From NCBI GenBank assembly GCA_002839805.1, contig PGYT01000001.1, positions 64,770 through 128,769 on the forward strand: a stretch of 64,000 nt of DNA. Reading direction: 5' to 3'. Below, piece after piece: positions 3,679-10,823 of this stretch (the stretch's first letter is position 1; every line of letters starts with the position of its first letter). A model generated the notes under the pieces. It ran no database searches, was not told where the DNA came from, and saw nothing but the letters and a program-made list of their open reading frames with translations. This DNA is from Ignavibacteriae bacterium HGW-Ignavibacteriae-2 (GTDB lineage: Bacteria > Bacteroidota > Ignavibacteria > Ignavibacteriales > Melioribacteraceae). The translations under genes and the position numbers were made by a program.

Positions 3679-4833
3679 CTATTTGCCAAAATAAAAACTA
3701 GCAAGTGATTCCGCCTGCGCTTCAGGTAAATTTTGAAGAATATCTTTATAAATTCTTTCTTTTTCGGTCACTTTAATATTCAGTTCGGTTATAGCTTTGT
3801 GTGTAATTCCATCAATTTCATGTTGGAAAAATGAAACCGCGGCACGTCCAATTTTTAATTCTTTTAGCTCCGAATCCAATTTTTCCGAGTCTAACTCACA
3901 AATCCAGTTTTTAGAATAAGTTGTTAAATCCAATAATTCTAAATTTTCTATTAGGGACTTATTCGTTTTTATCACTTTACCAGACACGGGTGAATAGAAA
4001 TTATATTTACGATTCCCTTGTTTTATGCTGAATAAACTTTGACCCGCATAAACTTCCATACCTAAGTTAGGGTACTCGATACCATCTATTCTGCCGATTA
4101 TTTTTTTTGCGAAATCATCAATTCCAACCTTTACATTGCCCGGCTGTTCCACACTTGTCCAAACATGACCTTTCGAAATAAAAACTCCGCCAGGAATAGC
4201 GAAGTCACATACTTCTTCCTGTTCATTCTCTTTTAAATGAGTAATATGCACAGAAGGTTTAAGAGCCAAATCAATTTTATGTTTTCGTTTAATCAGGAAC
4301 TCTTTTGTGTTTTTGAGCAGTTCGTCTTCAGTAAATGGTTTTTCCAGATAATCCATAGCGCCATACTTCATACACTCCACTGCCGAACTTACACTGGCGT
4401 ATCCAGTAATTATTATTACATCAATATCAGGTCTAATATTTTTAACCGCCTTACAAACTTCTTCACCGCTCATCTCCGGCATTTTTAAGTCTGTAAAAAC
4501 AAAATCATAATGATTTTTTTGAATTAGTCCTAAAGCTTCCTGCCCTTTTTCAACAGTATCTATTGAATATCCGTCTATTACAAGAATTTTTCTGAAACTA
4601 TCCAGTATTATTTCCTCGTCATCCACGCAAAGTATTTTAGCTTTGGCATTTTGTACTTCCACACGCTTAAGAGTTTTTGCTTCATTACTGAAATCGAACG
4701 AGAGACTTTCTTGCAAAACAGCTTCTCGCTCCCTTTTTATTTTTTTTTCTCTGGCATTTTTAATTAATGTTCTTATCGCCAGATCGGCAATTATAAATAA
4801 TGCCAAGAGCACTACTAGAATTAGGAATGTCAT
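3679..4833 (-). CDS. Membrane-anchored response regulator with GcvH-like domain
   Basis: 384 residues. One transmembrane helix (about 2-24) and a basic juxtamembrane segment are followed by a receiver domain (about 65-185) with acidic pair D71-D72, phospho-acceptor D115 (in FTDLKMPE) and K165 (in LEKPF). A domain closely matching glycine cleavage H protein (about 219-313) comes next: VKVGIDDFAKKIIG, then YSPVSGKVIKTN. In true GcvH the lipoyl lysine sits six residues before that Y; here it is asparagine (N274), so lipoylation at the usual site is not expected. There is no DNA-binding domain. Last gene of the operon, 25 bases after its paralogue, with an excellent GGAGGAAAT site. I infer an output through protein contact at the membrane. 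The function is not described to my knowledge. Confidence 0.85.
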   Translation of the reverse strand: MTFLILVVLLALFIIADLAIRTLIKNAREKKIKREREAVLQESLSFDFSNEAKTLKRVEVQNAKAKILCVDDEEIILDSFRKILVIDGYSIDTVEKGQEALGLIQKNHYDFVFTDLKMPEMSGEEVCKAVKNIRPDIDVIIITGYASVSSAVECMKYGAMDYLEKPFTEDELLKNTKEFLIKRKHKIDLALKPSVHITHLKENEQEEVCDFAIPGGVFISKGHVWTSVEQPGNVKVGIDDFAKKIIGRIDGIEYPNLGMEVYAGQSLFSIKQGNRKYNFYSPVSGKVIKTNKSLIENLELLDLTTYSKNWICELDSEKLDSELKELKIGRAAVSFFQHEIDGITHKAITELNIKVTEKERIYKDILQNLPEAQAESLASFYFGK

Positions 4834-4858
4834 ATTTCCTCCGAATTGTTTTTAAACT

Positions 4859-5665
4859 TTAATATCTATCGGAACTGCACGAAACTAAATTTTTTTTATC
4901 GTTTAGCAAACTGTCGGGTAGTATTAACGCAAGCCAACCGTCAAAGTAAGGATCTTTTTCAATTAGATTTATATTAATATCAATTTTTTCATTACACAAA
5001 ATTATTTTTCCGGAAATTGGAGCAAAAACTTTATGAAGGTAGCCGAATTCATCTGTTATTTGCATAAATTCTTGTCCTTGTAAAATAGAGCTACCTACAG
5101 GCGGCATACTTACTTTTTCAATCTGACCAATAGTTTTAAGGTACAAGTCTAAAATTCCGCATTTGTACAAACCTTCTTTTTCGGGATTTACCCATGTTGA
5201 AAAACCAAATCTTAAATAATTGGCAGGACAAGGCGTAAAGTGATGCATTAGCTGAGAATCAGAATTAGAACATTTCTTTAGATTTTTAATAATTTCAGAA
5301 AATTTCATCCCTCTCGAAATACAGCTTTCCAATTCTTCAAAAGTAAAAGGTTTGGATAGATAATCAATTGCCCCATGTGTTAGAGCTTTAATAGCATTAT
5401 CAATTGTGGAATAACCTGTAGTAATTATTATCGGTATATTTAATGCGTTTTTTTCCAGATATTCAAGTATTTGAAATCCATTAATATCAGGAAGCATCAC
5501 ATCGCAAATTATTAATTTGTACTTTCCTTTAATAATTTTTTCGAGACCTAATTTCCCAAATGTAACATAATCAACTGAATAATTATCTATTGAGGCAACT
5601 TTTAAAATAGAATCTATAATTACCTGTTCATCATCTATTACAAGTATATCAAATTTATTTGGCAT
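4859..5665 (-). CDS. Soluble response regulator with GcvH-like domain
   Basis: 268 residues without a membrane segment. The receiver domain (about 5-122) has D11-D12, phospho-acceptor D55 (in IICDVMLPD) and K105 (in LSKPF). A GcvH-like domain (about 150-250) follows, with STWVNPEKEGLYKCGILDLY, FAPISGKI and the typical closing DPYFDGWL. The position of the lipoyl lysine is occupied by glycine (G209, six residues before the F of FAPISG), so this domain also looks unable to carry lipoate. It lies 9 bases downstream of the kinase gene and 25 bases upstream of the membrane-anchored paralogue, so the pair probably receives phosphate from that kinase. No DNA-binding domain. Two cysteines (131, 146) precede the GcvH-like part; their role is unknown. 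Confidence 0.85.
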   Translation of the reverse strand: MPNKFDILVIDDEQVIIDSILKVASIDNYSVDYVTFGKLGLEKIIKGKYKLIICDVMLPDINGFQILEYLEKNALNIPIIITTGYSTIDNAIKALTHGAIDYLSKPFTFEELESCISRGMKFSEIIKNLKKCSNSDSQLMHHFTPCPANYLRFGFSTWVNPEKEGLYKCGILDLYLKTIGQIEKVSMPPVGSSILQGQEFMQITDEFGYLHKVFAPISGKIILCNEKIDININLIEKDPYFDGWLALILPDSLLNDKKNLVSCSSDRY

Positions 5666-5674
5666 ATTTTTCTT

Positions 5675-7549
5675 CTAGTTAATAACTACAGGAAATTTTA
5701 TTTTAAAAGTTGTCCCGATTCCAACTTTACTTTCAACATTAATTCTGCCATTATGGTTATCCACTATGCCCCAAACGACAGATAATCCTAAACCAGTTCC
5801 TTTTTGACCTTTAGTTGAGAAAAAAGGATCAAAAATTCTTTCGAGAGTTTCATTCGAGATACCTTCACCGTTATCTTCTATTTTTATTTGCAAATAATCA
5901 CTTTTCCCTTTTTCATCAATGTACTCCCATTTTTGCCATGTTCCGCCAAATTTTGAACAACCGATTAATTCGCCTTTTTCAGGAATCGTAAGTTTAAAAT
6001 AACTCGAGCCACATTCAGGACAATGAGAATCATTGACCATAAGAGAAATGTCACAAGTCGGACAACTTAACTCGAATGGTTTATCTTTAATCAGTGGTAT
6101 TCCGTAATGATGCCTGTGCAATCCGTAGATCGGATCCAAATGAATATAACCCTCATTCTGCTTGTACTTCGCTTTCACTTTAATTGATGGCAATCCCTCA
6201 ATCTTGTGTTCTTCATCCATAAGATTATGAGAATTAGGGCATACTGCTTTTTTAATCTGAACAATTCCTTTAGGAGAAAGACTAACAACTTCAGTTTTAA
6301 TTTTAATGATTCCATTTTGCTCTCTCAAAGAATCTAACGCATTAACAATTAAATTTATAAAGACTTGCTGTATTTGATTTGGATCAACAACTATTTCAGG
6401 CAATTCTTTATCATAAAGCAATTCAACTTTTGCGTTTTTTATTTTTATTTCATTCAGAACAATATTTAATGCCCTATCTATAACTACATTTACATCGGTT
6501 TTAATCCTTTTTGGAACAGACTGACGGGCAAAGTCGAGAAGTTGTTTAACTATTTCGCGGCTGCGTTTTGTTTCCCTTACAATCACATTTAAATCGGATT
6601 CCAATTCAGGGTTACCCTTGGCTCGTTTCAATAAATAACTGCTGTAAGTTAGCACCCCTGTAAGCGGATTGTTTATTTCGTGAGCTACTCCCGCAGCCAA
6701 CTGACCTAAAGATGCCATTTTATCGGATTGAAATAATTGCATTTTCATTTCAGAAAGATTCTTTGTCATTCTATCGAAAGAGTTGGAAAGAACACCCAGT
6801 TCGTCTTTTGATGTAGAACTGATTCTGTAATTCAGATTACCTACGGCCAATTTGTTAGTTGCCTCAACAATTTTTTTAACCGGTTTATCTACCCACCTGT
6901 TAATAAAAAAAGCGATAATAAGTCCCAGTGAAATTATTGAAACGAGAGCCAGTATTACAATAAGCAGTTCGCTTTTAGCTAATTGATAATCTACGTTTCT
7001 AAGATCAACTGTAATATCTAAAAGGCCTAATATTGATTGGTCCTCGGAATGTGCGTGACATTCAGCTGTATAACATGACCATTCATTATATATAGGATTA
7101 ATTACACCAATTACTCTCGTTGAGTCCGGATGCAATCTAAAAATTCTTGTTTTATCGTTTATTTTTAGTGTTGTTACCGGTTTAGTATTTGAATGGCACA
7201 CAATACAGTTTTCGGATGTTTGGCTTAATTTTACGCCAACCGAATTTTTATCACTCGAATAAATTACTTCGCCGGCTTTATTAAAGATTTTTATTTCTTT
7301 AATGTTGGGTTCTTCCGCAATTTTTTCGATTATGCTTATAATATGTTCTCTTCGATTTACAAGCATCTCATCGTGTGTACTTTTTTTAACTGTCTCACTC
7401 AACTGATTGGCGTGACGTTGAACCTCTTCAATTAACACGTCACGTTGTGATGTTAAACTGATAAAAGCGAACACACCAATAATAATTACTGCAGTAAAAC
7501 TCACAAGCAGTATTAATTTTGTGCTTAGTCTTTTAAATATCATTTTCAC
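5675..7549 (-). CDS. Haem-binding sensor histidine kinase with zinc-ribbon insert
   Basis: 624-residue membrane kinase. TM1 is about 11-32 and TM2 about 194-216, enclosing an extracytoplasmic sensor with one classical haem c site (CIVCH, 115-119) and one CX4CH site (C159-C164-H165, CYTAECH), the spacing known from tetrahaem c3 and Hmc cytochromes. Then HAMP (217-270), HisKA with AHEINNP (phospho-acceptor H290), N box FINLIVNALDSL (398-409), G boxes DNGEG (559) and GTGLGLS. Between N and G boxes, where family members usually have a short lid-free loop, lies an insert of about 125 residues (425-551) with CPTC, CPEC and two further cysteines, a probable zinc ribbon. Translation may start at GTG 7549 or at ATG 7543; neither has a good Shine-Dalgarno site. 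It sits directly after the 13-haem cytochrome gene. Confidence 0.85.
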   Translation of the reverse strand: MKMIFKRLSTKLILLVSFTAVIIIGVFAFISLTSQRDVLIEEVQRHANQLSETVKKSTHDEMLVNRREHIISIIEKIAEEPNIKEIKIFNKAGEVIYSSDKNSVGVKLSQTSENCIVCHSNTKPVTTLKINDKTRIFRLHPDSTRVIGVINPIYNEWSCYTAECHAHSEDQSILGLLDITVDLRNVDYQLAKSELLIVILALVSIISLGLIIAFFINRWVDKPVKKIVEATNKLAVGNLNYRISSTSKDELGVLSNSFDRMTKNLSEMKMQLFQSDKMASLGQLAAGVAHEINNPLTGVLTYSSYLLKRAKGNPELESDLNVIVRETKRSREIVKQLLDFARQSVPKRIKTDVNVVIDRALNIVLNEIKIKNAKVELLYDKELPEIVVDPNQIQQVFINLIVNALDSLREQNGIIKIKTEVVSLSPKGIVQIKKAVCPNSHNLMDEEHKIEGLPSIKVKAKYKQNEGYIHLDPIYGLHRHHYGIPLIKDKPFELSCPTCDISLMVNDSHCPECGSSYFKLTIPEKGELIGCSKFGGTWQKWEYIDEKGKSDYLQIKIEDNGEGISNETLERIFDPFFSTKGQKGTGLGLSVVWGIVDNHNGRINVESKVGIGTTFKIKFPVVIN

Positions 7550-7562
7550 TATTCATTCGCCA

Positions 7563-8675
7563 TTATTTAATTTTCTTCCCCGGTAAATTAGCTGGAAACG
7601 ATTTATCGTCATGACAATTTTCACACGTTGGTTTCTGATAGTTCGCATTTGTATGACAATCGCTACAATCTATTTCGGCATGAATTTCATCAAGTACCAG
7701 TTTAGCTTTCCTATGATCAAAAGTACCAGCTTTAAATTCTTGATGGCAATTGGAACAAGTTCCCTTTAAGCCTGTAAATGATTTCGGCTTTTTATGACAG
7801 TCTCTGCATTTCAATGCTGCGTGAAATTTGGAAATGTCAAAACCAGTTTTAATTTTATGATTAAATCCTTCCGTCACTTTTTCCATGTGGCAATTGTTGC
7901 AATTTTTAGCCGTGTCGTGACAACTTGAACATAACTGATGTTTTTGATTTAACGTTTTATTCTGTTTCTTAATAATTTTTTCTTTTGCGTGGCACTTAAC
8001 GCAACTTTCGTCCTTATGACAATCTTTACACTCAAGTGAAAACAAATTTGTATGATCGTTATGGTAGAATGTTACAAATTTATTTTTGCCGCTCTTTGCA
8101 TTATAAACAACTTTGTTCGGAGCAATTACTTCAGGATGAATTCTGTCTTTCTTAGGTACTGTTTTGGTGATTTTATTTTTGCCCGAATCACTATTTTTTG
8201 CATGACAGTACGTACATCCTTTGTCATCGCTCCACAATTTGTGGCAATCGATACATTGTCTGTGGTAAGCTCCGTTCAGATCAGGTTTTCTTAAATCGGC
8301 TCTTTGTCTGTTTACATCATGACATTCTTTACACGCCACTACTCTTCCAGGAGGATTATAATGATGACACATACTGCATCCTCCGCCCATTTGGGACATT
8401 TCAGAGTGTGCTCTATGTGAAAAAATTACAGGAGAATAAAGGTCCTTTTCCTTTTTAAGTATGTCTATTTTTATTTCCAGTGGTCCTTCAGACGGTGAAT
8501 GATGGACTGTAATCATTGTATGGCGGGGACAGTCTTTGATACAAGGTTCATTTTTTGTCGGATTTTCACATGAGTGACAAAATGAACAATCAACTTTTAT
8601 ATCCGAATGTTTTTGCTGAGAATATAATGCCGTGCTAAATAAAATTATAGATAAATAAAATAATATTTTCTTCAT
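7563..8675 (-). CDS. Thirteen-haem periplasmic cytochrome c
   Basis: About 370 residues with a signal peptide (KKILFYLSIILFSTALYS) and 13 CxxCH haem c motifs, first CSFCH and last CENCH, spread over the whole chain with many extra histidines as distal ligands, as in class III (c3/HmcA-like) cytochromes. It should be the periplasmic electron entry or exit module of the neighbouring membrane complex. The N-terminus also has a non-haem cysteine group (C-x7-C-x3-C) after the first haem. ATG 8675 overlaps the stop of the membrane-subunit gene as TGATG, with AAGGAAG 6 bases upstream; a GTG one codon earlier is the alternative. The tight overlap with nrfD-like and the kinase genes marks one transcript. 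Electron donor or acceptor is not known. Confidence 0.9.
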   Translation of the reverse strand: MKKILFYLSIILFSTALYSQQKHSDIKVDCSFCHSCENPTKNEPCIKDCPRHTMITVHHSPSEGPLEIKIDILKKEKDLYSPVIFSHRAHSEMSQMGGGCSMCHHYNPPGRVVACKECHDVNRQRADLRKPDLNGAYHRQCIDCHKLWSDDKGCTYCHAKNSDSGKNKITKTVPKKDRIHPEVIAPNKVVYNAKSGKNKFVTFYHNDHTNLFSLECKDCHKDESCVKCHAKEKIIKKQNKTLNQKHQLCSSCHDTAKNCNNCHMEKVTEGFNHKIKTGFDISKFHAALKCRDCHKKPKSFTGLKGTCSNCHQEFKAGTFDHRKAKLVLDEIHAEIDCSDCHTNANYQKPTCENCHDDKSFPANLPGKKIK

Positions 8676-9916
8676 CACTTGCTTCCTTGAATTGAGTATT
8701 TGGTTTTAAATACTCCCGCTTTTTCAGGAATACTAATAATTGGGAAATACTTAACAATAAGTCTGTACATAAGAACTTCTATGCATACAAATCCGAGAGT
8801 TACTGATATTTCCCCAATCGAAGGGAAATATGAGGTGGTTGCATATGGTGGATTGTAAGCAACAATAAAATTATTCAAACGATTTAATACTACTCCCAAA
8901 ATTACGAGCATCGATGCAATAAATATTCCTAGAGGTGATTCCCTAACAACTTTTGAGAAGAAGAGACGCATCGGGAGTATGATGCCGAAAATAATTTCAA
9001 TGGAAAACATTACACTTTCTGTACTAAGCACCATCAAATATACAAACGCTTCTCTTATAAGAATGTCAATAACTTTGAACGCCAGGTATATACCTAACAT
9101 TGGACCTATATATGATCCTAATTTGCTTAGTACGTGCATTTCAGGTTTTAATTTGAACGATCTTGAGGCAATTAACGATTCCATTATTACCATAGGGAAA
9201 CCCACACAAATTGCTGAAATCAAAAACAATAAAGGTAATATTGGTGTCTGCCAAAGTGGATGCATTTTCGGTCCTGCAATTACCATCAAAGTGCCAAGTG
9301 AAGATTGATGCAAACAAGATAGTACTACACCTGCGATGATAAAAATAAACATGGTTTTATCGAGACCTCTGTCTAGCATCCTCAATAATTTGTCTACTGG
9401 CGAATTTAGCTTTGCAAGCATCCCTTTAAAACGGACATTTCCAATAAATTTTTTCGTTACAATCGGCAGAAATTCTATGTAGAGTACCGAGACATAAATC
9501 ATAACACAAATACCAACCTCAAATAGAACACTATTACCATTCCAAAAAATCAGGGGATGCCAAATAGAGTACCATCGCCCCAAATCTATTGCAACACTTA
9601 ATGCCACAAAAGTATAGCCAAGGAGAGCTGTTAGCAGTGCCGGTCTTATAACAACTTCATATTCTTCTCTGTGCATAATATGGCCAAGCGCGGCAGTGGT
9701 AAAACCTCCGGCGGCTAAAGCAACTCCGGCTGCAACATCAATTCCGATCCATATTCCCCACGGATGTTGATTATCAAGATTAGTTATAGCACCTACTCCG
9801 AAAATTAATCTTAATGCAAGAAATATTAATCCGTTTAAGGCAATAAGAGAAACTAACATTACACCGGGTGTGAAATATTTTTTAGTCATTTGGGAGGGAT
9901 TCATCAACATTTCCAT
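8675..9916 (-). CDS. NrfD/PsrC/HybB-type quinone-interacting membrane subunit
   Basis: About 413-residue polytopic membrane protein with roughly ten hydrophobic segments, of the NrfD family (polysulfide reductase membrane subunit, HybB, HmcC). These proteins exchange electrons with the quinone pool and are held to the membrane face by a four-cluster ferredoxin subunit. The early segment HPWGIWIGIDVAAGVALAAGG is typical of the HybB/Hmc branch. I place the start at ATG 9916, where GGAGGAG (9924-9930) stands 7 bases upstream; a longer frame to 9940 would overlap the preceding gene by 23 bases and lacks such a site. The stop overlaps the cytochrome start. With its neighbours it forms a ferredoxin-NrfD-multihaem module as in Hmc/Tmc-like complexes. 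Confidence 0.9.
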   Translation of the reverse strand: MEMLMNPSQMTKKYFTPGVMLVSLIALNGLIFLALRLIFGVGAITNLDNQHPWGIWIGIDVAAGVALAAGGFTTAALGHIMHREEYEVVIRPALLTALLGYTFVALSVAIDLGRWYSIWHPLIFWNGNSVLFEVGICVMIYVSVLYIEFLPIVTKKFIGNVRFKGMLAKLNSPVDKLLRMLDRGLDKTMFIFIIAGVVLSCLHQSSLGTLMVIAGPKMHPLWQTPILPLLFLISAICVGFPMVIMESLIASRSFKLKPEMHVLSKLGSYIGPMLGIYLAFKVIDILIREAFVYLMVLSTESVMFSIEIIFGIILPMRLFFSKVVRESPLGIFIASMLVILGVVLNRLNNFIVAYNPPYATTSYFPSIGEISVTLGFVCIEVLMYRLIVKYFPIISIPEKAGVFKTKYSIQGSK

Positions 9917-9917
9917 A

Positions 9918-10823
9918 TTAATTCTCCTCCTTCTTGTCACGGTTCTTAGAAATCCACATTACTCCGCCTAACAAGGCATAAAGAGCCACTGGGGGAACAA
10001 AATATGAGAAAATACCATGCTGAATGGATTCGGATACTCCTGGTGCCGATTTATCGCCAAGTGTAGGGAAATCCAGATTCTTGAAATCTACACCAGCCAT
10101 ATACATCCAGGAAGTTCCACCAACCTCAGTTTCTCCCAATATATGGTTGTTATATCTTTCCGGATAATTTTTAATTTTTTCCTGTGCAACCTGCACTAAA
10201 TCTTCTCTTCTGCCATAAGTAATTGCTTCAACCGGACAAATTTCAATGCAAGCTGGCAGTTTGCCTTCTGCAGTTCTATCGAAACAAAAATCACATTTAC
10301 GTATTTCAGGCTCCAATGCTTTATGATAATCGAATGAAGGTATTTGAAACGGACAAGCGACCATACAATATCGGCAGCCTATACATTTGCTTTCGTCCCA
10401 TACAACAGAACCGTTTTCTTTTTTAGAGAAAGCCCCCACAATACATGCTGAAACGCATGCGGGCTGATCACAATGCATACATTGAACTTTAACATTTATC
10501 GGAGATCCGGTTTTATCATTCTGGTATTTATTGACTACCGTTAGCGCAGAATAATCCGGACGTCTTTTATTATCAAAAACAGATTCATTTTCATAATCAT
10601 CAATTGATCCGGAGGGCATATCGTGTGCATTTTTGCATGCCCATTCGCACTTTCTGCATCCTATACAAACTGTTGTGTCCACTAACACGCCCATCCTGTC
10701 CTTAGACAAAATATTTTCCGGGCTCGCTTTTGTTATAGAAGGAGTAATTCCCGCAACGCCTATTGTTGAAATTCCAATGGCTGAAAGTGATTTCAGAAAA
10801 TCTCTTCTGCCTTGTGTTGCCAT
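9918..10823 (-). CDS. Tat-exported four-cluster ferredoxin subunit (HybA/HmcB-like)
   Basis: 301 residues. The N-terminal twin-arginine signal RRDFLKS places it outside the membrane. Sixteen cysteines in four groups (CIGCRKCEWAC, CMHCDQPACVSAC, CIGCRYCMVAC, CDFC...CIEIC) should hold four [4Fe-4S] clusters. A C-terminal hydrophobic helix (about 272-292) anchors it to the membrane, as in HybA and HmcB. It should shuttle electrons between the NrfD-type subunit and the multihaem cytochrome. First gene of the leftward operon; its stop lies one base from the start of the membrane subunit. A molybdopterin catalytic subunit, which would make this a PsrABC or Nrf-type reductase, is absent, so a pure electron conduit (Hmc-like) is the better reading. 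Confidence 0.9.
   Translation of the reverse strand: MATQGRRDFLKSLSAIGISTIGVAGITPSITKASPENILSKDRMGVLVDTTVCIGCRKCEWACKNAHDMPSGSIDDYENESVFDNKRRPDYSALTVVNKYQNDKTGSPINVKVQCMHCDQPACVSACIVGAFSKKENGSVVWDESKCIGCRYCMVACPFQIPSFDYHKALEPEIRKCDFCFDRTAEGKLPACIEICPVEAITYGRREDLVQVAQEKIKNYPERYNNHILGETEVGGTSWMYMAGVDFKNLDFPTLGDKSAPGVSESIQHGIFSYFVPPVALYALLGGVMWISKNRDKKEEN

Follow-up and report, generated by a model that had tools for sequence, protein, structure and literature searches.

The window considered here, i.e. the whole stretch of 64,000 nucleotides analysed from Ignavibacteriae bacterium HGW-Ignavibacteriae-2, harbors an operon of six tightly spaced genes on the minus strand, whose order is conserved in relatives; all features of the window described below lie on this strand. 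The genes encode an Fe-S protein resembling HybA and HmcB (positions 9918..10823) with the twin-arginine signal RRDFLK, a HybB/HmcC-like membrane subunit of the NrfD family (8675..9940; PF03916, 72 bits), a cytochrome c with a signal peptide and 13 CxxCH motifs (7563..8678), a histidine kinase (5675..7549) and, as the last genes, two response regulators, RR2 (4859..5665) and RR1 (3679..4833). The HybB and HmcC models scored best for the NrfD subunit, yet below cut-off. Among the NCBIfam models, HmcB was the best and HmcC the second-best match for the complex, and all Hmc models stayed below the curated cut-offs (HmcB 336 bits with a cut-off of 420, HmcC 279/550, HmcA 47/400). The kinase possesses extracytoplasmic CxxCH and CX4CH motifs, which are probable c-type heme sites, as well as HAMP, HisKA and HATPase domains. 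A comparison of kinases furthermore delimited a zinc-ribbon-like insert of about 125 amino acids within its ATPase domain (5915..6277).

The open reading frames of both regulators were confirmed at the coordinates given in the preliminary description. RR1 (384 amino acids) consists of an N-terminal membrane helix, a receiver (PF00072, 106 bits) and a GcvH-like domain (residues 211-337, positions 3823..4203, from profile match and alignment), while RR2 (268 amino acids, receiver with 86 bits) is built of a receiver and a GcvH-like domain (residues 144-268, about 4862..5236, from the match to the H-protein structure 1htp) and has no membrane helix. This difference is kept among the relatives, as the N-terminal helix is present in 36 of 38 RR1 sequences and in none of 35 RR2 sequences. 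That both proteins end in such a domain, as described before, is borne out by PF01597 scores of 64 bits (RR1) and 56 bits (RR2) at a cut-off of 22. A DNA-binding domain occurs in neither protein. The residues of the receiver active site are D71, D72, D115, T143 and K165 in RR1, invariant in 25 sequences, and D11, D12, D55 and K105 in RR2, invariant in 26 sequences, with T83 kept in at least 90% of these. By their receivers both proteins are response regulators, and control by phosphorylation is plausible because the phosphorylation residues are retained.

The preliminary description had stated that both domains have lost the lipoyl lysine, and this is indeed the case: neither contains an E-x-x-K site. 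In RR1 the lysine is replaced by N274 (codon 4012..4014), as follows from a gap-free alignment to the GcvH of the same genome (EAVKTV, L001; L numbers denote loci), and K276 is out of register, two residues past the lysine position, as had been proposed. The structure model of RR1 (pLDDT 82.6) places a hairpin turn at residues 273-274 between strands 266-272 and 275-280. For RR2, the replacing residue had been given as G209 and has to be corrected to G208 (codon 5042..5044), since residue 209 is a tyrosine; the hairpin of RR2 is longer by one residue, so that G208 was aligned with one inserted residue and its register is uncertain by one. Under any reading of this register, no conserved lysine was found at the hairpin in the 35 RR2 sequences. 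Likewise, the motif DPYFDGW, which had been ascribed to both domains, is present in RR2, but RR1 has TTYSKNW instead. Across homologues, the lysine column is occupied by lysine in only 7 of 142 relatives, and these are scattered (5/38 RR1, 0/35 RR2, 2/43 and 0/26 in two groups of relatives without a receiver), whereas the E-x-x-K site (EAVK) is kept in all 20 true GcvH controls from the same class. The domains of RR1 and RR2 are H-protein folds without the lipoyl lysine, and this loss is shared throughout the family. Chance can be excluded, because the same pair of genes recurs in 28 loci of other genomes wherever the contig permits.

The fold itself was examined by modelling. In the model of RR2 (pLDDT 90.8) the second domain matched the H-protein 1htp with a Z score of 20.1 and an rmsd of 1.6 Å over 122 residues, at 25% identity. 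In the search with the whole RR1 model, receivers took up the entire list of matches, so that it is uninformative on the second domain; both models represent single proteins and do not bear on a complex. Fold and scaffold motifs (H..W, G.DDF, P..G and N) are shared with GcvH (PF01597, TIGR00527). Unlike GcvH, the domains of the window have neither the lipoyl lysine nor the E-x-x-K site, and with 61 bits (RR1) and 47 bits (RR2) they remain below the cut-off of 115.85 of the GcvH equivalog TIGR00527. The models not_gcvH (TIGR03077) and GcvH_rel_desulf (NF045810) also describe divergent relatives of the H-protein, but here the domains scored far below the cut-offs (18-40 versus 144-150 bits). The lipoate-binding protein LbpA of Hdr-like sulfur oxidation is similarly an H-protein homologue serving in a redox pathway, and most RR2 sequences resemble it by a cysteine near each end of the domain; however, the lysine is strictly conserved in LbpA (PMC6067878) and missing in RR1 and RR2. 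A receiver is not described for LbpA. Since the lipoyl lysine is missing, the domains are assigned here to neither GcvH nor LbpA. They belong to a wider family of lysine-less H-proteins, for which we use the name GcvH-prime.

A scan of genome contigs revealed 28 loci with a relative of RR1, mostly from Ignavibacteria, Melioribacteraceae and other metagenome-assembled genomes of the Bacteroidota group. RR2 accompanies RR1 wherever the contig extends, in one locus at a distance of several genes (L020), and one contig begins inside RR1 (L030). The upstream genes of the operon recur in loci on sufficiently long contigs, and in almost all loci extending that far the gene directly preceding RR2 encodes the kinase. 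Among the best matches listed for 395 genomes sampled from the phylum, at least 26 loci carry the full-length form with receiver. In addition, RR1-type matches were obtained in about 14 of 40 genomes from the phylum of a Calditrichaceae locus and in 2 of 100 genomes from that of an Elusimicrobiales locus. One locus contains three receiver-fused GcvH-prime genes around a single set of Fe-S protein, NrfD and kinase genes (L082, 3450-11230). Genes with at least eight heme motifs were detected within 8 kb after the operon in 11 of 26 testable loci; large multiheme cytochromes follow it in L008, L009, L015, L019, L024, L025, L032 and L082, some of them similar to MtrC/MtrF or fused to cytochrome b561.

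Beside the fused forms, relatives of GcvH-prime without a receiver are abundant in the same class. One type possesses an N-terminal membrane helix (40/43) and the other an N-terminal cysteine cluster (23/25). A C-terminal tail with a DGG motif is present in all 43 membrane-anchored and all 25 cysteine-rich members, and in none of the 38 RR1 and 35 RR2 sequences; the motif was also seen in L033 in a small protein of the membrane (6904-7164). The membrane anchor of the relative from L027 showed a weak likeness to HmcD (18.5 bits, E value 0.0014, cut-off 34), which was dropped, as neither RR1 of the window nor the other anchors tried gave a match. Genes of receiver-less members are found on either side of those for a HybA-like Fe-S protein and an NrfD/HybB subunit, and these are followed by a heme-type kinase and a sigma-54-type response regulator. 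Both kinds of modules occur in the genome of the window itself, which has four NrfD genes; they are located on contigs C5 and C46. Its second module (L033, 7198-14231) comprises a membrane-anchored GcvH-prime protein, the Fe-S protein, NrfD, a cysteine-rich GcvH-prime-like protein, a heme-type kinase, a sigma-54-type regulator and an archaemetzincin.

The loci were chosen by their GcvH-like gene, independently of NrfD. Nevertheless, an NrfD gene occurs at a distance of up to 5.5 kb from 66 of 68 receiver-less members, for 65 of these on the same strand, and the two exceptions both come from the end region of a single contig (L072). For the receiver-fused members the number is 56 of 73; 15 of the other 17 are located on contigs which end too early, and two (L019) are 5.8-6.6 kb away from NrfD. 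These loci are related to one another, and the counts do not represent independent events. In the vicinity of the 20 true GcvH genes (windows of 11-18 kb), neither NrfD nor the Fe-S protein was found. As GcvH-prime genes nearly always adjoin genes of an NrfD complex, the data suggest that the domain docks on or controls an NrfD-type, quinone-linked membrane complex, although the proximity of genes is no proof of binding. This linkage, like the fusion to receivers or membrane helices, distinguishes GcvH-prime from GcvH. The Fe-S proteins of receiver-fused operons carry a Tat signal, and those of most receiver-less modules have none (e.g. L033, 7884-8645), which suggests opposite sides of the membrane in the two kinds of modules. 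A Tat-exported Fe-S protein and a 13-heme cytochrome go together with the receiver-fused operons.

In a tree of 142 domains, which is based on few columns and a midpoint root, RR1 forms one group (support 100/92) inside the membrane-anchored receiver-less members and RR2 a separate group (99/95); the cysteine-rich members constitute a third and true GcvH a fourth. A recent tandem duplication of RR1 and RR2 is ruled out by these separate, supported groups. The receivers of both proteins cluster with moderate support (91/88) against the few others sampled and may thus have a common ancestor. The term paralogous, which had been applied to the pair, is loose, as the GcvH-like domains fall into different, well-supported groups of the family. 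Because the RR1 domain nests in a receiver-less family, the receiver was probably added after the loss of the lysine, at least for RR1. For RR1, the tree supports that a module which was already lysine-less and associated with NrfD gained the receiver.

A further feature related to the fusion is the insert of the kinase, which has conserved cysteines and separates the N-box strand from the G1 box. All 30 kinases bearing the insert stem from receiver-fused operons, and the 32 other kinases of the set are devoid of it. One of the latter comes from a divergent locus in which receiver-fused members are nevertheless present (L079), so that the association is strong but not perfect. A Pfam search with the insert yielded no model above cut-off, and zinc ribbons were weak matches; the insert, as found within the HATPase domain in the window and in L005-L032, falls outside every curated family.

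Taken together, RR1 and RR2 may represent a membrane-anchored docking module, controlled by phosphorylation, which acts on a respiratory complex and not on DNA. We prefer this reading tentatively, rating its chances somewhat below even. The two regulators would sit at the cytoplasmic end of a two-component system that specifically serves the respiratory complex of their own operon. The kinase would read the state of periplasmic electron carriers by means of its c-type heme motifs and phosphorylate both receivers. RR1 would be anchored in the membrane through its N-terminal helix, which RR2 lacks. According to the positive-inside rule, basic residues following a membrane helix face the cytoplasm, and such residues after the helix of RR1 indicate that its receiver and GcvH-prime domain are most probably cytoplasmic. 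There the domain, not being a lipoate carrier, would dock on the cytoplasmic face of the NrfD complex, and phosphorylation could shift the seating of the docked domains and so adjust how electrons pass between quinone and the 13-heme cytochrome. As neither regulator has a DNA-binding domain, the output would be post-translational. The previous proposal that a lipoate-carrier fold was reused as an output or binding module under the control of phosphorylation is in part upheld by the H-protein fold, the loss of the lysine and the intact receivers. It does not hold in the form given, since the lysine-less domain also occurs in proteins that have no receiver and whose family is linked to NrfD complexes. 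The preferred reading is weakened by the receiver-less modules, in which an ordinary sigma-54-type regulator is encoded after the kinase, so that GcvH-prime is not a two-component output there. A more far-reaching and rather doubtful idea is that this lipoate-free family is a dedicated partner of NrfD-type quinone complexes, that in one branch the fusion to receivers produced membrane-anchored regulators with direct phospho-control over a respiratory or extracellular electron transfer complex, and that the kinase insert co-evolved with them.

The main rival reverses the direction of the signal, from the complex to the receiver. GcvH-prime would then be an input or assembly module, which informs receiver and kinase about how the NrfD complex is occupied or about its redox state, or tethers the kinase system to this complex, and would not itself regulate the electron flow. 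The receiver-less members flank the Fe-S and NrfD genes in pairs, like subunits, the fusions include neither a DNA-binding nor a catalytic output, and in the receiver-less modules the transcriptional output is left to the separate sigma-54-type regulator. However, no separate regulator adjoins the operon of the window, which leaves RR1 and RR2 as the receivers available to the kinase, and we regard this reversal as unlikely, albeit a serious alternative. Improbable is also a purely structural domain, i.e. a relic of an old gene fusion serving dimerisation or stability, with the regulators serving the kinase chiefly as phosphate sinks. The best-conserved residues do form the core of the H-protein fold, but pairing and gene order are kept across loci from Ignavibacteria, Calditrichota and Elusimicrobia, and the tight linkage to NrfD with and without a receiver argues for a specific task.

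Two other possibilities concern a chemical group in place of the lipoyl lysine. The cysteines near both ends of the RR2 domain (C146 and C263 in the window) might serve as a redox switch or sulfur carrier, sensed or controlled by the receiver; both are present in 28 of 35 RR2 sequences and recall the two strictly conserved cysteines near the N- and C-terminus of LbpA, which are missing in GcvH (PMC6067878). Against this, the pair is missing from RR1, incomplete in four and absent in three RR2 sequences, and no Hdr-like sulfur genes are among the annotations of the operon, which makes such a function quite improbable. Modification of a neighbouring lysine by lipoate or another acyl group, for example at K276 of RR1, would be consistent with the occurrence of some lysine at most a few residues away from the tip, as seen in 24 of 42 membrane-anchored members and, for RR1, in 17 of 37 sequences. 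Its position is not conserved, lysine is mostly lacking there in RR2 and the cysteine-rich members, and the E-x-x-K site is absent, so that we consider this very improbable.

With regard to known systems, the Hmc and HybAB modules likewise combine an Fe-S protein with an NrfD subunit, and Hmc additionally includes a multiheme cytochrome. The hmc operon of Desulfovibrio also contains a response regulator gene, rrf1; to our knowledge, a GcvH-like domain is known neither in Hmc nor in Hyb. Response regulators with an output other than DNA binding resemble RR1 and RR2 in the intact receiver and the kinase gene alongside, but the module attached here is an H-protein domain. A literature search, with most subscription papers outside its reach, retrieved no published description of a fusion of receiver and H-protein, of the NrfD module or of the link to the archaemetzincin.

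Automatic annotation would tend to label such domains as glycine cleavage H-protein, which is misleading. If the preferred interpretation is true, an H-protein family that lost its cofactor now serves respiratory membrane complexes as a component for protein docking, and an electron transfer complex would be the target of a two-component system that works without transcription. As multiheme genes trail the operon in 11 of the 26 testable loci, this could bear on the control of extracellular electron transfer in Ignavibacteria and their relatives.
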